23,525 bases of DNA from positions 1 through 23,525 of IMG/VR virus record IMGVR_UViG_3300027387_000028. One strand, 5' to 3'. The notes beneath the pieces were generated by a model. That model saw nothing but the letters and a program-made list of their open reading frames with translations. It did not search any database and had not been told where the DNA came from. Both the position numbers and the translations under genes were made by a program. Source of the stretch: a virus. Positions 4,116-17,017 of the stretch are shown in pieces; the stretch's first letter is position 1, and each line of letters opens with the position of its first letter.

Positions 4116-5195
4116 TTATAGTTCTGGTAAATCTAACACGTCGTCTGACGTACCAAAGTTAAAGAATTCTTCCTCATTAGACAAAGAACTTTCTTCTTTT
4201 TCTTGATCTTCATAGAAAGCATCTGGTACTGGTGTAGTATCAAAAGGCACTTCTTCTTCTTCAAAGTCAAAGATTACTGGTTCATTTACAGGTTCTTTAT
4301 CAATGTCAAAATCTGAACCTGTATTTTCTACATTATCAAAATCTGAAATCAATAAATCATTAGTCATGTTTACATACATCTCCTCTTCTTCTGAAATAAC
4401 ATCAAAGATACTTATCTGATTAGGATCTGTCTCCGGGATATTTACAGGAAATGCTTCTTGTAGAGTTACTGGAGTACTAAGAAGAGTATGTTTTAATTCA
4501 TCATACACTGTATCAAAACATCCGATGTGTGATCTAGTATAGAACTTAGGATGACTATGCTGGATAGAATATGCTAATCCTGTATATACCGTCCATAAAG
4601 ATATCTCTTCGTTATCTTTAAACCACTTATCATAGTAATGTTTACTTGCAGTCAACTGATCTGCTTTAAGATAATCATTAATAAAGGTCTTACCCATGAT
4701 CTCTCCGCACTGATTCTTATTTACAAGTACAACTTCCATAGATGTCTTACGTCTAAGTAATTCATTATAGAAACTATCTGTATGACCAATCTGTGTCTTT
4801 ACATTGTCTACCATCTCTATGTCTGCAGTACCGGTATGTTTACGCATAAAGAAAGCCATGTCTGAAGTAATCATTACTCCGTCAGTATCTTTAAAGTGCA
4901 AACCTACACTACAGTGAAACTTAGTACTCTTATCATATGAGTTAACCCAGGTAAATACTATACCTATATTTGGATCTGTACCATATGACATGTAGTGGTT
5001 ACCAACTGTAACCTGTCCATTTGAAGAGAATAACTCTCTATCTACAATTAAACCAGCAGCTGCTAGTTCTACACGAACAGTATCAAGTATTGACTTATTC
5101 GTAATTACTTTATAACGTCCTCCATGTGAAGGAATTAGGGAAGGGTCACAGAGATAACTCTCCGTGCTCCCACCCATTGCTAATTTGAATGGCAT
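4116..5195 (-). CDS. DUF932-like phage protein
   Basis: The 359-residue product has a soluble N-terminal two thirds and a very acidic, low-complexity C-terminal third (Glu/Asp-rich from about 265 onward, with repeats such as FDFEEEEVPFD). The core contains HFKDTDGVMITSDMAFFMRKHTGT-type segments, a helical stretch around QIGHTDSFYNELLRRK, and LWTVYTGLAYSIQH near 208-221. This order recalls DUF932/plasmid-like phage proteins, whose function is unknown. It sits one base after the DNA polymerase stop in the same operon, suggesting a role around replication or recombination; the acidic tail could recruit basic partners. The start MPFKLAMGG has no Shine-Dalgarno. The family call is moderate only. 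Confidence 0.5.
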   Translation of the reverse strand: MPFKLAMGGSTESYLCDPSLIPSHGGRYKVITNKSILDTVRVELAAAGLIVDRELFSSNGQVTVGNHYMSYGTDPNIGIVFTWVNSYDKSTKFHCSVGLHFKDTDGVMITSDMAFFMRKHTGTADIEMVDNVKTQIGHTDSFYNELLRRKTSMEVVLVNKNQCGEIMGKTFINDYLKADQLTASKHYYDKWFKDNEEISLWTVYTGLAYSIQHSHPKFYTRSHIGCFDTVYDELKHTLLSTPVTLQEAFPVNIPETDPNQISIFDVISEEEEMYVNMTNDLLISDFDNVENTGSDFDIDKEPVNEPVIFDFEEEEVPFDTTPVPDAFYEDQEKEESSLSNEEEFFNFGTSDDVLDLPEL

Positions 5196-5196
5196 A

Positions 5197-7188
5197 TTAA
5201 AATAAACTTAATTGTGATTTTTCTTTTAACTTGCTGATGTTTTCGATTTCTTTATAGACTCTCTCTAGATAATACTCGTCATTGACATCATAGTTATCCC
5301 AAGGTTTAATCTCATAAAGATTAAACTCTGTCTGTAACCACTTACCTGCTTCTAAACGAGTCTCTCTACCATCAGCTTTGTTGACCTTAATTAATTTGCA
5401 ACCTTTGTTAGATACATAATACCGTACTACACCTTGTAGTTCACGATCATGTCTAACTCCTTTTATGAAACAGGTTTCCATAAAAATCCAGTCACCTTTA
5501 CGCTTCACACCTATACAGTAATCAAAGATGTTTCTATTCTGCTGTATGAATATCTCCGGTGCTACATTATGTATAAAGAAATAATAGATTGCTTTTGGCA
5601 CTATTAAAGCAGATTTATTCTTGTGTAGCGGTAAGTCCGAGAACTCGAATCTACCTTTACACTTAGTTGTCTTTACATAATACTTACCGTTATTCTCACG
5701 ATAGACAAAGTGAGGAGTCTTCTTTTTCATAGACTCATACGTTTCTTTATCTACTTCCTTCTCTTTGAATACAGCAATATAGTTGTTTACATCACCAATG
5801 ATCATCTTATCGTACTGATCATGTTCTAGTTGTAACTGAGTCATGTCTTCCCATTTCTTGCAGATCTCTAGATAGCGATCTTTTGCAGTCTCTGGAATGA
5901 TCATTTCTAAACCATCGGTATTCTGCATTAGCGGAACACTCTCAGGAATACCATCAGATAACATCTCATACAACATAACCAGACTAAGCTGACCATTGAT
6001 TGTAATCCTCATAGTAAACTCAGGATCATACAAGAAACTATTCTCGTCATTACTGAGACCATAAGTACTATTTAGGATAATCTTGTAAACATAGTTCTTC
6101 GGATCCTTCTTAGGTATCTTCTTTCTCTCTTCAAAGAACCATTCATACTGTTCACAGAATTCTTCTTTAGGTAAATGCGCAGGAGACCATCTATTCCTAA
6201 TAGCTAGATTAGGATAGAAACTAGTAACATCTGAAGTCATGATAATCATACCATCTTTTGCTTCATAGATACCAGCTTTGGTAGCACCATGCACACCACC
6301 TAAACCAAAATCTGTTTTGACAGACTTATGAGTGACTGAATATTTAAACCCACCCTTAGTATCATTAGGATTAATCTTTAAAGTTTTAAACTTCTCATGG
6401 ATGTTTTTAAACTCTTTGCGATTAAAACTAATATAATCTAAGAGAATGTCTCCTACTACAATAGAGTCTCGTTTAGTTCTCATCTGCTTTAGATCATACT
6501 TTCGTATGTTGAGTTTGCTACTCAAGAAATGCAAGAAGAGTTCTTTAGATATCTTTGGTTCAGAAGCACTGTACAGGTTGATACCATACTCGTTAGTCAA
6601 CGCTTTTCTCAACATGATTTGATCTTTGCTGAGCATCATTACTTGCTTAGTTGCAAGTACATCGTTAATACAGTAACTTATTATAGTATCTAGCTGTTCT
6701 TTTGTGCGGATTACAGTACTGTGTTTGATAGGCATATCGCGAACGTTATTCCAATCCATAGAGTACTCAATCCACTTTAGACTAGATCTTTTTGCAGGAT
6801 TATCCCAGTGATTTAACCGGAATACATCTAGCTGCTTGATACTTAGTATCCGCTCACCATACTCCGGGAATTCACCTTTGTTAGAACGGTCTATAGTATC
6901 TTGAGCTTTCAGATACAGTACATGTGCTATGGTCTCAGCAGGTTCATCGAGATAGTAATCACCTTCTCTAATGATGAACTCAGTAATCTGAGAGTCAAAG
7001 TTTATACCGTTAAATGAAATATGCCAAACTTCTTCACTCTTACAATCTTGTAAGAACGAGTACAATTCAGCATAATCATTCCGAGATTCATGTACTACAA
7101 ATATCTTTTTCTCATCAGATTTATAGTCTATAAATACTGCGACGAAGCAATTAATTAGGGTCTCATAGTCATGTACCCAGTTAGTCAT
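5197..7188 (-). CDS. Family B DNA polymerase with 3'-5' exonuclease
   Basis: The 663-residue protein carries the full exonuclease set: ExoI HDYET (Asp7, Glu9), ExoII FNGINFDSQ (59-67, Asp65), and ExoIII YCINDVLAT (172-180, Asp176). The polymerase part has motif A DVTSFYPNL (320-328), motif B KIILNSTYG (369-377, matching Kx3NSxYG), and motif C QNTDG (422-426). In motif C the usual YxDTD appears as NTD, but the second, catalytic Asp is kept. It would replicate the phage genome with proofreading. It is short for the family, as is usual in small phage polymerases. The ATG overlaps the upstream stop by one base (TAATG). crAss-like phages carry either a family A or a family B enzyme; this one is of the B type. 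Confidence 0.95.
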   Translation of the reverse strand: MTNWVHDYETLINCFVAVFIDYKSDEKKIFVVHESRNDYAELYSFLQDCKSEEVWHISFNGINFDSQITEFIIREGDYYLDEPAETIAHVLYLKAQDTIDRSNKGEFPEYGERILSIKQLDVFRLNHWDNPAKRSSLKWIEYSMDWNNVRDMPIKHSTVIRTKEQLDTIISYCINDVLATKQVMMLSKDQIMLRKALTNEYGINLYSASEPKISKELFLHFLSSKLNIRKYDLKQMRTKRDSIVVGDILLDYISFNRKEFKNIHEKFKTLKINPNDTKGGFKYSVTHKSVKTDFGLGGVHGATKAGIYEAKDGMIIMTSDVTSFYPNLAIRNRWSPAHLPKEEFCEQYEWFFEERKKIPKKDPKNYVYKIILNSTYGLSNDENSFLYDPEFTMRITINGQLSLVMLYEMLSDGIPESVPLMQNTDGLEMIIPETAKDRYLEICKKWEDMTQLQLEHDQYDKMIIGDVNNYIAVFKEKEVDKETYESMKKKTPHFVYRENNGKYYVKTTKCKGRFEFSDLPLHKNKSALIVPKAIYYFFIHNVAPEIFIQQNRNIFDYCIGVKRKGDWIFMETCFIKGVRHDRELQGVVRYYVSNKGCKLIKVNKADGRETRLEAGKWLQTEFNLYEIKPWDNYDVNDEYYLERVYKEIENISKLKEKSQLSLF

Positions 7189-8155: not shown

Positions 8156-9124
8156 TTACAATGACATCTTATTTATAAGATAATCATAAGGTAGACTATA
8201 ATTCCTACTAGTATAGTGATACTCAGCTTTCATTAACATCTCATCAAGATTCCAGATCCAGCTATGCAATGTAGCAGCACAAACAGGAAACGCGAATACC
8301 TGCTGGTACTTATCAATAACTATGAAATTAAATCTGATCTCTGAGAGACCTTTAAAGTTTGCTTGTATTAACTTGTAATACATAGCAGCTTGCATCCAAT
8401 ACTTGTAGTACTCAACAGTTTCTCTAAACTCAGAAATTGTCTTTCCGGTAGTTTTAAAGTCATTGATTGTAACAACTTTAGTTTCAGGATCATAAACATA
8501 GTTGTCTATGATACCTTTTAAACCGAATGAATACTTAGTCTCAGCTTCTAGTGGCACCTCACTCCAACTATTAGGCGAACCTAACTGAAGTAAGCTAGTA
8601 ACTGAGTTGTTACTTAGTATTAATTCAACATACCCTTTGAGTCTATCATAGGTTTCCTGATCTATAACAGTCTTGGAACCCTTTGATTTGAGAAACTCAT
8701 AATAGTTAATATTCTCTGCAGTGAGCATCTTTTCTACACGCTGTTGATCAGTCTTAAGACTTTGGTGTAGATTGACCTCCCTTAGAATATCAATTATAGT
8801 TACCTCATGAGATGACAAAGGTAACTGTTCAAAACCGTTTTGGCAAGACAGTGCATACACTTTGTCAATAACTTTACGTGCGTTGTCCCCAGGTAATGTA
8901 GCAAGTGATACTACAAACTGGTCATTAAACTTTTCATTCTCAAGTAGTAAACAGTGAAGAGCTCGACCCTCAATTAAATGAGAGTCAAGCTTGTCTTCAC
9001 GTTGACCAAGAATATAATGTTTATAAAAAGTGTTTGGTACATACAGTAGTTTGTTCAGACTGCTGTAACTGAACTGAAACTTCTTGTTGTAGAACCTCTC
9101 CTCTGCTTGGAAATCCGTTATCAT
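8156..9124 (-). CDS. PD-(D/E)XK (RecB/Cas4-like) exonuclease
   Basis: The 322-residue protein opens with FSYSSLNKLL (18-27) and IEGRALHCLLLE (51-62, His57), and then shows the nuclease core GLKGIIDNY (201-209, Asp207), NDFKTTGK (221-228, Asp222-x-Lys224) and WMQAAMYY (243-250, Gln-x3-Tyr). This matches phage members of the PDDEXK_1/RecB-like family. It would degrade DNA ends, probably with the Sak4-like ATPase and SSB-like protein encoded further upstream. The conserved N-terminal segment supports the ATG at 9124, so the 104-base overlap with the preceding gene is real and not a wrong start. An A-rich leader precedes the ATG. Confidence 0.88.
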   Translation of the reverse strand: MITDFQAEERFYNKKFQFSYSSLNKLLYVPNTFYKHYILGQREDKLDSHLIEGRALHCLLLENEKFNDQFVVSLATLPGDNARKVIDKVYALSCQNGFEQLPLSSHEVTIIDILREVNLHQSLKTDQQRVEKMLTAENINYYEFLKSKGSKTVIDQETYDRLKGYVELILSNNSVTSLLQLGSPNSWSEVPLEAETKYSFGLKGIIDNYVYDPETKVVTINDFKTTGKTISEFRETVEYYKYWMQAAMYYKLIQANFKGLSEIRFNFIVIDKYQQVFAFPVCAATLHSWIWNLDEMLMKAEYHYTSRNYSLPYDYLINKMSL

Positions 9125-10196
9125 TTAGTTTATTATTTATTTTGGTTAATGCTTCCTCAGAGAACTTGTATCCTGTATGTTCAATCATACTAGTTGATGA
9201 TGAGAACTCATCAGCACCTAGTTCATATAAGAAATCTACTACTTCAGGTGTAACTTCACCTTTTTCTATAGCAATGTTGAATACATCTTCATAGTCAAAT
9301 CTAAATTGGTATCTCATGTTAGTTCCTAAGAAACTAATAAGACCTTTGAATGCTACAGTTTTTCTAGTAGGATGATCCCATACTTTATGACCGTATAGTC
9401 TAGAGATCTGTGCTAGATATACAGCACTCTTCTTATAGTTACAGTTAGCCATAATAGTCATAGCAACAGTATGGTTACTAGTATCAGCACTCTCAAACAT
9501 CTGTAAGATAGCTTCAAAGGTATCTCTATCTATTACTGCTTCACCCATCTTATCTAATAGAGCTGCCTCATCATATACCTTAATACCACCATCATTAAAG
9601 AGATTATTTAAGATAAGGTTTGCTTCAATAGATTCCATAGTTATATAGGTACCTGCAAAGTTAAAATCTGCAAAACTAGCACTTGCCCAACTATTACGTG
9701 ACGACTTATACTTCTTATTAATAGATTCTATAGATCGTCTGAAATCTGTGTTATCATCTTTTTTGAAGAAAGAGTTCTTAAACAACTTTGCATCATCAGG
9801 ACTCATAAAAGCTTGTTCACCGTTAGTATGATCAAACTCCTCAAAGACTTTATATATTTGAGTATCAGCTGACTCATAACAGTACTTTGAGTTTGTAAAA
9901 ATCAAGTCTGCCTTCTCAGGATCTCTAACAACACGAGCACCAATAGAATCTAGTAATGACTTTAGTTTCTCTCTAGATACCTCACACTTAGGAGATATAT
10001 AAATAGTTTTAGCACCGGTTAAATCTACAGTTTTATTTACATGCTCATCATAGAAACTTTTAAAGTATCTAATGTTTTGCCAGTTATTATCTGAAAACTT
10101 TACTACTTCTTTTTGAGTACAGTTTAGACTGTCAATAAGACCCATTGAATTTACATTCAATGAATCTACTATGTTAATTTGAATTTTGTTCACCAT
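9021..10196 (-). CDS. Accessory-module paralogue C (BRCT-like segment plus shared module)
   Basis: The 391-residue product is a paralogue of the next gene upstream. Shared parts are a BRCT-like segment (63-101: KTIYISPKCEVSREKLKSL, then GARVV and ADLIF), a region around ESIEANLILNNL (188-199), and a module of about 50 residues (218-269, AVIDRDTFEAILQMFESAD and then ANCNYKKSAVYLAQI). A short version of that module also occurs in the 161-residue protein at 13703-14188. The homology fades near residue 360, and the last 30 residues are encoded inside the nuclease gene in another frame. No enzyme motif is visible. The neighbouring MoxR-type ATPase and vWA protein suggest it is a partner or adaptor. 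An 8-bp inverted repeat lies at codons 12-18. Confidence 0.8.
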   Translation of the reverse strand: MVNKIQINIVDSLNVNSMGLIDSLNCTQKEVVKFSDNNWQNIRYFKSFYDEHVNKTVDLTGAKTIYISPKCEVSREKLKSLLDSIGARVVRDPEKADLIFTNSKYCYESADTQIYKVFEEFDHTNGEQAFMSPDDAKLFKNSFFKKDDNTDFRRSIESINKKYKSSRNSWASASFADFNFAGTYITMESIEANLILNNLFNDGGIKVYDEAALLDKMGEAVIDRDTFEAILQMFESADTSNHTVAMTIMANCNYKKSAVYLAQISRLYGHKVWDHPTRKTVAFKGLISFLGTNMRYQFRFDYEDVFNIAIEKGEVTPEVVDFLYELGADEFSSSTSMIEHTGYKFSEEALTKINNKLNDNGFPSRGEVLQQEVSVQLQQSEQTTVCTKHFL

Positions 10197-11325
10197 ATGG
10201 TTTAATGAATTCTTCGTAATTATACTTTGGGGTTATCTGGATGTTTACATGAGTAAGATCTAATCTTCTCTCAGCATCTTCTCTTTCAGAAGCTAGAATA
10301 CTAGACATAAGTTTATTATATGTTTCTTCTAGTAATTGTCCATTTTTTGCAAGATGGGTTACTATTTCACTTTCATCCATGTTTTCTATAACATTCCAGT
10401 GTACTAAGGTCTTAAATAGTTTAGCTTCTTTAAGTCTGTTATTTTCAGAAGTATCTATACGGTATCTATGCTTCATAGCTAGTCTCCATATATGATACTT
10501 AGAATTCTTAGCATTACAGTTGAATAGAATCTTAGATGCTGTTAGATGATCCTCTTGAGAAGGACTGCTAAACATCATATCTAAACTATTATACATGTCA
10601 TCATCTAGTACTACTTGATTACCACAGGTCTCAATAAAATGTTCTTGTGATATTACTGGTACTTTCTTAGATAGAATATTATATACAAGAGTAAGACTCT
10701 CTGCATTAAGTGCCCACTGTGTAGTAGCATCTTCCATGTTATCAGTATAAGCAGATTTACTGTAGTGAGATGCTAATGCTCTTGTCACTATAATAGTATC
10801 ATCTTGCTTTAACCTGTCATGATAATCTATACCAGTAGTAGGTAATACAATAAACGTATTCTTATTCTTTATAAAATCTACAAGGGTTTGGTTATATACT
10901 ACCTGACTAGAATAGTGTTCACCTACAATACATCCATTAGGATACTGATTCTTATTAATGTCATAGCTTGATGCATCTAGAATATTCTGTTCAGTACCTA
11001 GGATAACAGTAGCTTTTTCTATGTTACTAGTCACGGTCATACCAGATGTTTTACAATACTCTTTGATCTTATAACTAGGTATCTTAGAGTCTGGTAATAA
11101 ATAAATCTTATCTCCAGAAACAGGAGTATAAGCATCACCCCCTTTCAGGAGTGATGCTATTTTATTCCTACTTTCCATAGAGATTTTATACAACTCTGTT
11201 ACACCAATACCACTATTAAACTCATCAGGACTAAACATGTAAACATATTTAAGGGATCCTTCTACAAATTTTAGTTTGCTTGGTAAAGTAGAGTCTTCTA
11301 AAATACTACTAATGTTGTTTTGCAT
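10174..11325 (-). CDS. Accessory-module paralogue B (BRCT-like segment plus shared module)
   Basis: The 383-residue product aligns with the downstream 391-residue protein. It has a BRCT-like segment at 73-111 (KIYLLPDSKIPSYKIKEY, then MTVTS and ATVILG), an ESLTLVYNIL region (209-218), and the shared module at 236-287 (QVVLDDDMYNSLDMMFSSP and then NCNAKNSKYHIWRL). The Asn-Cys-Asn at the centre of the module is common to both long copies. It ends in a polar helical tail. There is no membrane helix or catalytic signature. Its ATG overlaps the MoxR-type stop by one base (TAATG), and its 3' end overlaps the next gene by 23 bases, so the ATPase and both paralogues are translationally linked. An adaptor or substrate-recognition role is inference. 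Confidence 0.8.
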   Translation of the reverse strand: MQNNISSILEDSTLPSKLKFVEGSLKYVYMFSPDEFNSGIGVTELYKISMESRNKIASLLKGGDAYTPVSGDKIYLLPDSKIPSYKIKEYCKTSGMTVTSNIEKATVILGTEQNILDASSYDINKNQYPNGCIVGEHYSSQVVYNQTLVDFIKNKNTFIVLPTTGIDYHDRLKQDDTIIVTRALASHYSKSAYTDNMEDATTQWALNAESLTLVYNILSKKVPVISQEHFIETCGNQVVLDDDMYNSLDMMFSSPSQEDHLTASKILFNCNAKNSKYHIWRLAMKHRYRIDTSENNRLKEAKLFKTLVHWNVIENMDESEIVTHLAKNGQLLEETYNKLMSSILASEREDAERRLDLTHVNIQITPKYNYEEFIKPYGEQNSN

Positions 11326-12512
11326 TATTTTACAGTCATTTTGATTACCTCTGGATTCAACATCAACTTAGACCACTTCTGTTTGTTACCATTAAGGATA
11401 CCCTTAACGATATAATACTTAAGGTCATTGCTGAAGATATCATCAGTAATCAAGTTAGTAACACGATCAATTAATGGTTGAGTTACTGTGTTGTTATTAC
11501 TATAGTGCACTGCATAGTTGATGATACGAGTAGTCATCAAGCTGGCAATATCTGCACGGTAGCTGTTACCCTCACCAATACAAGACTTAAGTTGTCCTTT
11601 GATATACTCCCAACTGTTGTTATTCAATACATCTTTAGGAGTTACCAACTTATCAAGCTTGTTGTTAATGAACATAGTAAACATAGTAGCAAACTCACCA
11701 CCTACAGAACCTTCACCGATCATCTGAATAATAGGAAGACTCTCTTCGAAACTATCTAGACTAGAGATAGAGTTAAAGAATGTAGTGAAGCTACGAGCAT
11801 TAGCACGCTTCTCTGTCAACTCAGGATGTAACAACATAAAGTTAATACAACGAGTGTCGATCTCATTCTCTTCTGCCCATCGCGCCCAACAGTCAATATC
11901 AAACTTCAAGTAACTTGTGATAAAACGAGTCTTTTGCGCTTCGTCAAGAGATGTCACCTGATAGTCACCGTTATCTGGATTACTAGTCAAGATTACAGTC
12001 CAACCTTTTGGTAGCTTCCATGAGATATATTCCTGACGGTCAATGATTTCCATAGTAGCTTGCATGAATCTAGCATCAGCACGAGTATAGTCGTCAAGAA
12101 TCAACAAACCGTTCTCGCCTTTACCTTGAATCCATTCTGGTTGTGCATGCGTCATACGCTTCTCACCAGTAGGAACATACTTCTGCTGAATATACAATGG
12201 CATGATGTTCTCAGGAATCCATTTAGCTACACGCTTACCGTCGTCAGTAGTCTTTGCTACTTCAAATTCCTTAATAGGAAAACCTACTAAGTCACCCAAC
12301 TCCTCGAGCTGACTCAAGGATAATTTTACAAAGTGAAGGTTGTTCTCATTAGCATACTGTAAGATAGTACTTGTCTTACCGATACCTGCTTCACCTTCGA
12401 TGTTTACAGCTACAGGAATCTTTCCATTCTCCTGTAAGTACTTGTTATTATTTACAACGTGTGTTACGAATTGCTTTAACTCATCTGTGTTTAACTGAAC
12501 TTGCTTTGCCAT
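11325..12512 (-). CDS. MoxR-type AAA+ ATPase
   Basis: The 395-residue protein has a Walker A at 40-47 (GEAGIGKT), a LEELGDLVGFP segment (69-79) typical of MoxR-like ATPases, Walker B LLILDDYTRAD (136-146), a sensor-1 TSNPD (176-180) and a basic KTRF (194-197) in the position of an arginine finger or sensor region. It would form a ring and remodel or load metal or partner proteins in the cytoplasm. The gene directly upstream encodes a vWA protein, which is the standard partnership (RavA-ViaA, MoxR-vWA). The ATG has an A-rich leader. The C-terminal 200 residues are helical and without further motifs. Bacterial relatives pair with DUF2201-type proteins, as here. Confidence 0.9.
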   Translation of the reverse strand: MAKQVQLNTDELKQFVTHVVNNNKYLQENGKIPVAVNIEGEAGIGKTSTILQYANENNLHFVKLSLSQLEELGDLVGFPIKEFEVAKTTDDGKRVAKWIPENIMPLYIQQKYVPTGEKRMTHAQPEWIQGKGENGLLILDDYTRADARFMQATMEIIDRQEYISWKLPKGWTVILTSNPDNGDYQVTSLDEAQKTRFITSYLKFDIDCWARWAEENEIDTRCINFMLLHPELTEKRANARSFTTFFNSISSLDSFEESLPIIQMIGEGSVGGEFATMFTMFINNKLDKLVTPKDVLNNNSWEYIKGQLKSCIGEGNSYRADIASLMTTRIINYAVHYSNNNTVTQPLIDRVTNLITDDIFSNDLKYYIVKGILNGNKQKWSKLMLNPEVIKMTVK

Positions 12513-12525
12513 TTTCTTAATTTTT

Positions 12526-13719
12526 TTAATTCAACTTGATTTGTGGTCCAGGAAGACCTTTGTTAATTTCACCACGGGTAGATATTACCCACAACATTTT
12601 ACCTTTTGGTTTTACATCAGTGCTACACTCACCATCTGTGAGATAGAATAAGCACGTATACTTTCTTTGATTTTCATTGTAATACTCTAGTACAGGATCA
12701 AAATCAGTACCACCTCTACCATGAAGAGTTATATCTTCATTAGGTTTGTACTTCTCAATACTACGAATAACAGTATCACATTGTAAGATAGTTACCTCAC
12801 TACCAGTTTTATGTATGTGATGTATCTCATTAAGGAACTCCTTAACTTCTTTATCACTTACAGAACCACTAGTATCTATAGCAACCAACAAGTGTCTCTT
12901 GTTTTTAATCTTAAGACCAGGGTTCTCTTCAAACCTCTTGTTGTCTTTACGTCTAAGTTTCTTAGTGAATACTTCTTTAGCACCACCTGCAAATCTTCTG
13001 ACATAACTACGCCAGTCAAACTTAGGTGGTTCTACATGACGTAGTCTTTCTAAGATACCTTTAAACTCTCCGGGAATAGTACCCCTAGATTTCTCTACAG
13101 AATCTGCAATTTCTTTCAAGATATGTGCTGTCTGAGACTCAAGTAATTTCTTCTCTGCTTCAGATAGATCTTCAAAGTCTTTCCAAGTACCATGATCAGG
13201 AACATTAGTACCACTACTATGTTGTTCACCGTCATCCATACCTGCCATATCAGAGATCTTTCCACCAGAACCAGATTGTTCTTCTTGTTCTTTTGCCTGC
13301 ATCAAAAGTTTGTAATACTCTCTACAACCTGCTTTAGGTGGTAGATTATATTCAGCAAAAGACTCTAGAGTACAACCACCTTCAGGTAAATCTTCCGCAT
13401 CTATGAACTGATTAATCTCAATGTCCATAGCAATGTTTGCTACTTTCTTATTTTGAAATTCATCTTGACACTGAATGTGGAAGAAACCTATATGCAATAA
13501 CTCATGCTTCAGAAGACCTCTCTTGTGATTATCACTAAGAGAGTTCCAGAAGTCTTCGTTAATAGTAAGCTGGAAGTTAACACCATTCTTACTTACACCA
13601 GCAGTAGGTACACGTTTGTTCCACTGCTTATTTAAACTTAGTAGGAGAAGACCATAGAATGGTTCTTTCAACATAAGTTCTTTACTAGCTCTTGCTAGAC
13701 TGTCATGATTGTTTAACAT
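12526..13719 (-). CDS. Zincin-vWA fusion protein (DUF2201-like)
   Basis: The 397-residue protein has two domains. The N-terminal one carries HELLHIGFFHIQ (72-83), a HExxH zinc-peptidase signature with a downstream acidic helix. The C-terminal one is a von Willebrand factor A domain with an intact MIDAS: DTSGS (282-286), Thr338 in GGTDF, and Asp362 in LTDGE. The linker (145-225) is low in complexity and acidic, and a basic patch precedes the vWA domain. This is the architecture of DUF2201 putative metallopeptidases that pair with MoxR ATPases. It could bind a target through the MIDAS and cleave or remodel it with ATPase help. It overlaps the upstream paralogue by 17 bases and precedes the ATPase by 13. 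Confidence 0.9.
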   Translation of the reverse strand: MLNNHDSLARASKELMLKEPFYGLLLLSLNKQWNKRVPTAGVSKNGVNFQLTINEDFWNSLSDNHKRGLLKHELLHIGFFHIQCQDEFQNKKVANIAMDIEINQFIDAEDLPEGGCTLESFAEYNLPPKAGCREYYKLLMQAKEQEEQSGSGGKISDMAGMDDGEQHSSGTNVPDHGTWKDFEDLSEAEKKLLESQTAHILKEIADSVEKSRGTIPGEFKGILERLRHVEPPKFDWRSYVRRFAGGAKEVFTKKLRRKDNKRFEENPGLKIKNKRHLLVAIDTSGSVSDKEVKEFLNEIHHIHKTGSEVTILQCDTVIRSIEKYKPNEDITLHGRGGTDFDPVLEYYNENQRKYTCLFYLTDGECSTDVKPKGKMLWVISTRGEINKGLPGPQIKLN

Positions 13720-14188
13720 GCTTTGGAATTAATTTAAGGTTCATCTCTTCTACGAAATCAAAACCCCAGGTTAATAAATGTTCTTGTAGTGACGCAGAAA
13801 ACTTATCTAGGAAAAACTGCATTGCGGCCGGACTAGTCTTAGTATTCTTCTTAATAACATTATACATACTATTAAAGTTAAGATGTCCTTTATCATTAGC
13901 ACAATCATTTACATATGTCATGATAGATGGACTAAAAGAAGTATGTCTTATAACATCCTGATCATCAGGAGTTGTTACATCATTCTTAAAAGGATCATGA
14001 TTACAGTTACTTTTACTGCAATCTTTTGCAAGCAATAAGATGTACGGAAGGTTCTCTTCCAAGTCTACTGCTTCTATAATACTTACACCGATATATACAC
14101 TTTCTTTGTCAGGACTTGTTAGCATCCCTAATACTCTTTCATAAGTACTATCTGATAGAATAATACTTTCTTGAATGTTCTTTGTCAT
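13703..14188 (-). CDS. Accessory-module paralogue A (short form with shared module)
   Basis: The 161-residue product carries at residues 8-57 the module also seen in the two long proteins downstream: IILSDSTYERVLGMLTSPD, then VSIIEAVDLEENLPYILLL. It lacks the BRCT-like part. The module pattern (Asp/Ser, a Tyr or Phe, hydrophobic helix, Ser-Pro/Ala-Asp, second helix) suggests a pair of helices as in HEAT-like repeats. The C-terminal part is unique to this protein, with a helical segment QFFLDKFSASLQEHLL. It starts on the last base of the upstream stop (TAATG) and overlaps the zincin-vWA gene by 17 bases, so it is translated as part of the same module. No function can be read directly. Confidence 0.75.
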   Translation of the reverse strand: MTKNIQESIILSDSTYERVLGMLTSPDKESVYIGVSIIEAVDLEENLPYILLLAKDCSKSNCNHDPFKNDVTTPDDQDVIRHTSFSPSIMTYVNDCANDKGHLNFNSMYNVIKKNTKTSPAAMQFFLDKFSASLQEHLLTWGFDFVEEMNLKLIPKHVKQS

Positions 14189-14535
14189 TAGTCTTCAATT
14201 TTTAATGTTTTAATTCTCCACAGTGGGTGTTCATTACCACTAACTGCTTTGACCCATTCTTTTGCACTAGGTATATAACCATTGCAATCTTCTTTTACAT
14301 GTTGTTCACCTACATATCTGGTGTATACAGTTCTACCTGCTGTGTTTACAAAGCTTACTCCGAAGATCTTTTCAGCTTCAAATATACCTTCACTATGATG
14401 ACGAAATATTCGGTGGTCACTATGACCTACCCATGATTTAGTCTCATCAAACCAGTTATGTATATGTGTGTAATCTGTTAGTTCACCACCCCACCTTCTA
14501 GCGGATGATTTAGCATGTTCATTCGGATGTGCCAT
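14188..14535 (-). CDS. DUF6915-like His-rich protein
   Basis: I start at the ATG at 14535 (MAHPNEHAKSSARRWGG), giving 115 residues; the in-frame M codons at 14556 and 14550 would lengthen the overlap without adding conserved sequence. The protein has an unusual density of conserved-looking His and Arg: HAKSSARRWGG (7-17), IHNWFDETK (25-33), HRIFRHHSEGIFEAE (41-55), and GEQHVKED (76-83). From memory this matches DUF6915, a small bacterial and phage family of unknown function. The clusters RHH and EQHV could form a metal or nucleic-acid site. It overlaps the upstream DUF6878-like gene by 17 bases. Confidence 0.65.
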   Translation of the reverse strand: MAHPNEHAKSSARRWGGELTDYTHIHNWFDETKSWVGHSDHRIFRHHSEGIFEAEKIFGVSFVNTAGRTVYTRYVGEQHVKEDCNGYIPSAKEWVKAVSGNEHPLWRIKTLKIED

Positions 14536-14875
14536 AGTCACCTGATGCATCAGCACTTTCTATACTTCTTATAACACCGTCTACTTTCCAGGTCTTATCT
14601 TCAATATTTATTCTTACTGTACCATAACCACCGTCATTGTTATACCAATCATACTCATAGTTATTACTAAGAACTTCATAAAGCATTTCTTCTACCTTAG
14701 ATAGAATGACATCATCTACATCTATAGTATTAGCATCCTCATCTTCACAGTATACATGTTCTATTGAACCACTATCTCCACTACCGTCGTATTGAGCAAC
14801 AAGTTCAGTTATACCCATGTTCTTAAGGGAGGATACAAATGCTGCTTCCTCTAATTCATCATTAAATGCACTCAT
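14519..14875 (-). CDS. DUF6878-like small acidic protein
   Basis: The 118-residue product is strongly acidic and carries two distinctive segments: QYDGSGDSGSIE (28-39) and DWYNNDGGYGTV (76-87), separated by a helix (VEEMLYEVLSNNY). The order YDGSGDSG, helix, NNDGGYG and then a beta-rich end is what I recall of DUF6878, a small family of unknown function. Gly/Asp loops of this kind may bind metal. It lies five bases after the GIY-YIG-like gene in an A-rich leader and overlaps the DUF6915-like gene by 17 bases. The two DUFs together lead into the MoxR/vWA module, but whether they belong to it is not shown. Confidence 0.65.
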   Translation of the reverse strand: MSAFNDELEEAAFVSSLKNMGITELVAQYDGSGDSGSIEHVYCEDEDANTIDVDDVILSKVEEMLYEVLSNNYEYDWYNNDGGYGTVRINIEDKTWKVDGVIRSIESADASGDYGTSE

Positions 14876-16336: not shown

Positions 16337-17017
16337 TTAGAGTTCAAAGTCACTACTCACAGAAGAGGACGTTGCGACGTTACCAGATCCAAATGAATCT
16401 ACAGTCTCAACTTTCTTCTTCTTAATGTGTAGGTCTTTGTCAAATGCAATAACATTAGCTGCATTCTCAACAGGTGCCATATTATAAACACCGCGTTGAT
16501 TACGAACCAAGAACAAGTCATGGTTAGTATAACCGTCTTTGTTAGTATACTCTTTACCACCAATACACATCATTACAAACTTATCTTTGAATGGAGCATC
16601 TTCGTTGAACTTCTCTACATATTCTTCAATAGTTTCAAAGACACCATCGTTATCTTCCATCCACTTGTAAGAATTAGTATTTCTAGCAAGAGACTCAAGC
16701 GCTTTCAAGATGTCGTTCTGACGATATACTTCGATACCAGTCTTAGTAGTACCATCTTTGTATGCATACTCGTTGGTCTTAACTTTACCAACTTGACCAA
16801 GATGTCTTCCTGCATCAGGATTGTTCTTGTCAATATAGAAACCTTCGAAATTCTCAATAGGTTCTGTCTCTACGTTCATTACTAAGAAAGATGCACTTGT
16901 ATCATAGCTTGGTGTTTCCAATTTGATACTGTTGATCTTACATACTACATTACCAGGAGCGATAACTTTCGGCAATCCTGAACCTTCTGAGGATTTTAAA
17001 TTTTTGATACTAATCAT
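16337..17017 (-). CDS. SSB-like single-stranded DNA-binding protein
   Basis: The 226-residue product has an N-terminal beta-rich region (about 20-170) and a Ser-rich tail ending in SSDFEL, the acidic C-terminal type used by SSB proteins to recruit partners. No textbook OB-fold motif can be read, so the call rests on this layout and on context: the gene follows the Sak4-like ATPase by 11 bases, and phage Sak4 recombinases are commonly encoded beside an SSB. It would bind exposed single strands during replication and recombination. A Lys-rich stretch (HIKKKKVETV) lies just before the tail. The terminator follows 17 bases after the stop. It could also be another beta-barrel replication factor. 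Confidence 0.6.
   Translation of the reverse strand: MISIKNLKSSEGSGLPKVIAPGNVVCKINSIKLETPSYDTSASFLVMNVETEPIENFEGFYIDKNNPDAGRHLGQVGKVKTNEYAYKDGTTKTGIEVYRQNDILKALESLARNTNSYKWMEDNDGVFETIEEYVEKFNEDAPFKDKFVMMCIGGKEYTNKDGYTNHDLFLVRNQRGVYNMAPVENAANVIAFDKDLHIKKKKVETVDSFGSGNVATSSSVSSDFEL

Follow-up and report, generated by a model that had tools for sequence, protein, structure and literature searches.

A MoxR-type ATPase and zincin-vWA gene pair, with three proteins sharing a helical module, in the replication cassette of a putative crAss-like phage lineage

The window analyzed here is the 23,525-nucleotide stretch at positions 1 to 23,525 of the IMG/VR virus record IMGVR_UViG_3300027387_000028. Its minus strand carries a block of five genes: candidate adaptor A (161 aa, positions 13703-14188); a zincin-vWA protein (397 aa, 12526-13719) made up of Pfam domains DUF2201_N and DUF2201; a MoxR-type AAA+ ATPase (AAA; 395 aa, 11325-12512); and candidate adaptors B (383 aa, 10174-11325) and C (391 aa, 9021-10196). 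A is a stand-alone six-helix domain; B and C join a BRCT-like region to the same kind of helical module, and C adds a disordered tail. The five open reading frames, which an earlier note on this DNA had described as nearly overlapping, are intact: A and the vWA gene overlap by 17 nucleotides, a gap of 13 nucleotides separates vWA from AAA, AAA and B overlap by 1 nucleotide, and B and C by 23.

The zincin-vWA protein clears the cut-offs of both its Pfam domains (DUF2201_N, 8e-19 and 68.7 bits, cut-off 23.2; DUF2201, 2e-20 and 73.3 bits, cut-off 26.4) and matches PHROG 1314 at 3e-67. The name that PHROG 1314 bears, 'HNH endonuclease', is wrong: its members are zincin-vWA proteins, and the name has been copied onto many phage records. 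The HELLH motif (residues 72-76, positions 13492-13506) is intact, with at least 97% conservation of H72, E73, H76 and also H81 across 95 sequences; the metal ion-dependent adhesion site (MIDAS; DTSGS / GGT / TDG) is complete and is conserved in 95 relatives. This is the HELLH-plus-vWA protein of the earlier note. The ATPase keeps its catalytic motifs, Walker A (residues 40-47), Walker B (136-141), sensor-1 N178 and the arginine finger R196 being near-invariant among 89 relatives. It matches the PHROG 1297 ATPase family at 2e-36, but Pfam AAA_3 at 0.003 and 18.1 bits, under the cut-off of 27; it reads as a diverged ATPase of the MoxR type.

Median identity to the window is 61% for AAA and 55% for vWA, as against 24-29%, where detectable, for the adaptors; a conserved engine with fast-diverging adaptors is what one would see in a motor served by specificity factors. 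In relatives, group I introns (Rfam RF00028) split the ATPase gene at Walker A (after residue 44) and at Walker B (near residue 148), in loci L006 (5767-7998), L116, L118, L119, L121, L140 and L145. Six more loci (L058, L062, L073, L095, L109 and L158) have the vWA gene split, at residue 74 in HELLH and at residue 337 in MIDAS; those of the six that were scanned gave no Rfam intron above threshold. Such repeated inserts, at the Walker A, Walker B, HELLH and MIDAS GGT codons, are to be expected where sites are functionally frozen.

The three proteins that flank this pair share one module. In the window alone, none of 2000 shuffles reached the real score in any pairing of the three stretches first noted, and the corresponding z-scores are 5.5 for A-B, 6.9 for A-C and 14.9 for B-C. 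Searches with B brought in 8 loci and searches with AAA 80; the A and B/C families were then assembled independently of each other, members being assigned by gene position. The A-only profile matches B/C at an E-value of 1e-15, and the B/C-only profile matches A at 6e-13; hhalign of the two families gives a probability of 98.3 and an E-value of 2.2e-14 over 112 columns, reproduced on separately made alignments (probability 98.2-98.3, E 2-3e-14, 112-114 columns). Applied to 4,588 open reading frames of block neighborhoods, the A profile found no matches beyond A and B/C. It follows from the profile and hhalign results that what the three have in common takes up all of A and the C-terminal half of B and C. 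The AlphaFold2 model of A (predicted local distance difference test, pLDDT, 81.6) has helices at residues 13-23, 28-40, 47-59, 87-96, 105-114 and 120-140, and six matching helices occupy residues 224-327 of the model of C. Judged by these comparisons, A, B and C carry one homologous, predicted all-helical domain of ~112 columns. The shared module that the earlier note had seen in all three proteins is thus real and matches significantly from profile to profile, but is about twice the size proposed: the stretch of ~50 residues is its best-conserved part, the first two to three helices.

The module lies at residues 219-334 of C (positions 9195-9542) and from residue 236 to about 350 of B (10276-10620). 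A hidden Markov model of its initial hairpin finds residues 220-262 of C at 1e-19, 237-280 of B at 4e-17, and 8-52 of A (14033-14167) at 1e-12. The fold of A has no significant match in the PDB, Foldseek returning only weak HEAT/armadillo-like ones, and B/C, AAA and vWA gave nothing useful when their sequences were searched against the PDB. Neither the A/B/C adaptor family nor its hairpin, which recurs elsewhere in these genomes (see below), is present in any library searched.

About 160 viral loci were examined for gene order. When architectures are pooled, 116 loci show A-vWA-AAA-B/C and 12 show A-vWA-AAA-B-C; the others are contig ends, have intron-split genes or have no detected A. With B/C relatives as bait, the ATPase is present in 80 of 80 loci, and the vWA gene is missing from a single locus, which stops at a contig edge. 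The five genes accordingly occur together in related phages, their order kept in nearly all loci, and no B/C paralogue was found apart from the ATPase gene among those examined. The flanks are equally regular where contigs have room, with an exonuclease in 119 of 119, PolB in 47 of 48, primase in 68 of 75, Sak4 in 58 of 60 and DnaB in 50 of 55. These genes lie at matching distances, so that the block is locked between DnaB-Sak4-primase on one side and exonuclease-PolB on the other.

The window DnaB is closest to that of gut crAss phages (31% identity), and the order of the replication genes resembles that of cr125_1, with a similar DnaB-hyp-Sak4-hyp arrangement. The window itself has no TerL gene; a relative's TerL is closest to crAss TerL (~25%) and then to Flavobacterium phages. 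By these matches the virus belongs to a deep, uncultured crAss-like lineage (Crassvirales), whose contigs reach 123 kb and whose hosts are probably Bacteroidota. We read its habitat as aquatic from the spread of the contigs and the kinship with Flavobacterium phages. B/C is missing from ten named crAss-like or related phages, and A from the six of these that were tested. B/C-type proteins gave no tblastn match in 50,697 phage records. The full B/C alignment has no stretch conserved enough for a distant scan, and a narrower alignment was used instead; a pattern scan of 84,980 bacterial and archaeal genomes yielded no B/C relatives, and on that ground a bacterial origin of B/C was rejected.

The N-terminal half of C provides a further clue. 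Foldseek places PARP1 BRCT domains at the top of the PDB matches to the C model (probabilities 0.97 and 0.96), followed by other BRCTs, with E-values of 0.1-0.4; the best of these combines a probability of 0.97 with an E-value of only 0.11. Weak Pfam BRCT matches below cut-off are found in members of the B/C family, C itself matching BRCT_2 at 0.015. C, and B by alignment, would accordingly have an N-terminal BRCT-like domain, at residues ~60-112 of C (positions 9861-10019) and ~71-112 of B (10990-11115), the latter aligned to C's region, with the fold of B itself not predicted. In the model of C (pLDDT 78.6) the tail falls below 50 from residue 358. Against predicted viral proteins (BFVD), C matches an uncultured Caudovirales protein at 2e-11, a CrAss-like virus protein at 1e-7, and two paralogues of one podovirus at 5e-8 and 3e-6. 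An Hsp33 match of C (NCBIfam, 1e-5), shared by 2 of 34 family members and far below cut-off, and a death-effector Pfam match in one B/C relative (0.007) were both taken as chance.

All B-type and all C-type copies separate into two tree clades at 100/100, although some joins involve long branches. A recent duplication was rejected on this ground, and by the tree the B/C paralogy is ancient. Both types occur in the window clade; the C type stands by itself in many relatives, and the B type in loci L020-L032. The C of the window ends in CTKHFL (positions 9024-9041); among 88 distinct sequence tails, the tip of C-type proteins is D-D-x-F-[ED]-W-F in most single-copy relatives. This acidic aromatic tip recalls the tails of single-strand-binding proteins, a resemblance and nothing more. 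The window encodes a likely single-strand-binding protein at 16337-17017, which has no Pfam match and an acidic tip, SDFEL (DFSLD in relatives); the FEWF/DYFL tips of C-type adaptors can be set beside these.

Scanning whole records with the A profile also turns up matches outside the block. A hairpin model built from A and B/C only finds 19 further proteins at E-values from 1e-7 to 7e-3, the next match (0.77) being at the level of the best reversed decoy (0.76). Reciprocal models made from the new hairpin proteins only reach A at 3e-8 and 5e-10, and hhalign of the hairpin gives 2.4e-8 with a family of 135-160 aa proteins and 1.4e-9 with the small proteins. The regions in the set of 19 were picked as matching; the fair statistics are those of the whole-record scans and the per-genome E-values, which, without that bias, run from 4e-9 to 2e-3. 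The satellite proteins share helices one and two of the module and are of two unrelated kinds, encoded in the same genomes as the block. The small ones (83-112 aa, one type with a coiled coil) carry the hairpin at the extreme C-terminus, often come two in tandem, and in relatives lie just upstream of genes for the exonuclease, a 171-aa protein, TerL and portal. The 135-160 aa family adjoins NinB-like and UDG genes. B/C and vWA genes are present on seven of the eight satellite-bearing contigs, the eighth being a 29-kb fragment, and the hairpin was not seen in four other crAss-like phages that lack the block. The hairpin is a putative docking tag for the engine.

What might such a block do? We favor, with a probability of roughly 0.45, an ATP-driven protein-remodeling machine that serves the phage's own DNA replication/recombination apparatus. 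The sequence evidence behind it is the intact engine pair, the one shared helical domain, strict co-occurrence and synteny in the replication cassette. Homology and synteny likewise bear out the proposal that A, B and C are dedicated further components of one conserved phage module; remodeling of the replisome or of recombination complexes, one of the roles that the earlier note had offered, fits the locked position and the BRCT-like domain. We infer ring assembly, the adaptor role, client identity, proteolysis and docking as follows. The ATPase ring would work together with the vWA protein, which would hold clients by way of its metal site and might cleave them with its HELLH motif; A and B/C would act as adaptors. 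The BRCT-like domain and the acidic aromatic tip of B/C would make contact with the replisome, with single-strand-binding protein or with DNA ends, and the helical module of B/C would connect to the engine, or to A. The most speculative step is that the hairpin on other phage proteins might let the engine reach them, near repair genes and near terminase-portal. As a variant, the combination of zincin, AAA and BRCT-like parts may remove proteins stuck on DNA.

Several points weigh against the remodeling machine. Proteolysis by the HELLH protein is read from conservation, contact between module and engine is conjectural, and the BRCT assignment depends on a single predicted model and a Foldseek E-value of 0.1. 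A was not seen in loci L033, L079, L087 and L169, and no satellite hairpins were detected in the window's own closest relatives (contigs of 62-79 kb). A larger scheme, possible but doubtful, makes the hairpin a lineage-wide docking code, borne by adaptors and clients alike, that steers one ATPase-protease engine to the replication apparatus as well as to terminase-portal packaging; such a remodeling hub could pass DNA from replication on to packaging.

The satellites can be read otherwise. Small hairpin proteins stand immediately upstream of exonuclease-TerL-portal genes in relatives, and since they adjoin terminase and portal, they could be clients of a virion-assembly chaperone, the ATPase-vWA-protease pair folding, assembling or trimming capsid, portal or tail proteins. 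A virion role has been suggested for the MoxR and metallopeptidase-vWA pair of jumbo phages (PMC7824862), and a MoxR-vWA pair is reported to serve tail development in an archaeal virus. We nevertheless regard this as somewhat unlikely, given that the block is fixed in the replication cassette and not in a late block, that BRCT-like domains typically belong to replication and repair, and that the second satellite family lies near UDG/NinB. Unlikely too, and a little more so, is that the hairpin or module is a mere structural building block (a HEAT-like helical pair or an oligomerization element) unconnected to the ATPase. Its fold is indeed an ordinary helical array with weak Foldseek matches to armadillo/HEAT proteins, its contact with the engine is conjecture, and satellites were not found in the window's own sub-clade. 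Yet it is specific side chains, M-L-x-S-x-D-x-D-N, that are kept across unrelated proteins, not generic heptads, and the satellite hairpins share seven of eight contigs with B/C and vWA genes, with no hairpin seen in the four crAss-like phages that lack the block.

The earlier note had also entertained action against host proteins, and had pointed to the MoxR-vWA ternary conflict systems with their target-specific third component; in bacteria such ternary systems act in conflicts (PMC7159879). That the adaptors diverge fast would suit a host-directed or anti-defense system in which they mark host proteins for remodeling or cleavage. But the block is fixed, syntenic and universal in the lineage, not patchy; PADLOC gives no convincing defense or conflict match; the same hairpin is found on other phage proteins; and the genome scan found no bacterial or archaeal B/C homologue. 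We consider this reading quite improbable. Nor is the block a ternary conflict system: it has a MoxR ATPase, a vWA protein and further components, but it is phage-encoded, has no effector domain, and A, B and C, being different proteins, show no VMAP, iSTAND or FtsH-type match in Pfam, NCBIfam or PADLOC. In those systems small effector-associated domains (EADs) are common to core and satellite proteins (PMC7159879). The hairpin on A, B/C and satellites is similar in layout only, with no EAD sequence homology found and nothing related to it in sequence found in Pfam.

The replication/recombination remodeling machine would be a variation on pairs already known. MoxR and metallopeptidase-vWA genes have been described in jumbo phages (PMC7824862), and N4-like phages (gp24/gp25) are among the described carriers (PMC2784036). 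These are the same two engine proteins (PHROG 1297 and PHROG 1314), usually encoded side by side; vWA relatives occur in 393 named phage records, aligning over up to 97% of the length at 28-30% identity. A and B/C homologues are absent from the six named phage regions inspected. RavA-ViaA likewise combines a MoxR ATPase with a vWA co-chaperone, to which the window block adds module-bearing proteins; ViaA is not known to have a zincin domain. The ATPase-vWA pair is thus already known, whereas, as far as the searched libraries show, no description exists of the A/B/C family, of its BRCT-like architecture or of the dispersed hairpin. For crAss phages, nothing on a MoxR and zincin-vWA pair was found in the literature searched, which left most subscription journals out of reach. 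The pair is found in hundreds of phages, misannotated as HNH endonuclease. What the window lineage adds, relative to the others inspected, is fixed partners, a set location within the replication cassette and a tag common to possible clients, which makes the targets of phage ATPase-vWA engines directly testable. If true, this would be a first case of an AAA+/vWA machine that serves phage replication or packaging and has an adaptor code of its own.

A few observations lie to one side. Two proteins of the window contain what look like sliding-clamp binding motifs: QLSLF is the C-terminus of the family B DNA polymerase (5197-7188), and NQISIF occurs in the protein at 4116-5195; no sliding-clamp gene was noticed in the window. 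A DUF6915 protein (14188-14556) is encoded directly upstream of A, is kept beside the block in 137 of the 156 loci with room for it, and may be part of the block operon. Two of the ten named phages sampled, the gut crAss phages cr125_1 and cr10_1, likewise have an AAA protein with a second protein in the replication cassette, an AAA_5 ATPase with DUF7192; these belong to other subfamilies, with no HELLH-vWA protein and no A/B/C. The gut crAss DUF7192 genes beside the AAA_5 ATPase (L194, 6759-7667; L195, 6796-7602) are annotated as transcriptional regulator and porphyrin biosynthesis.

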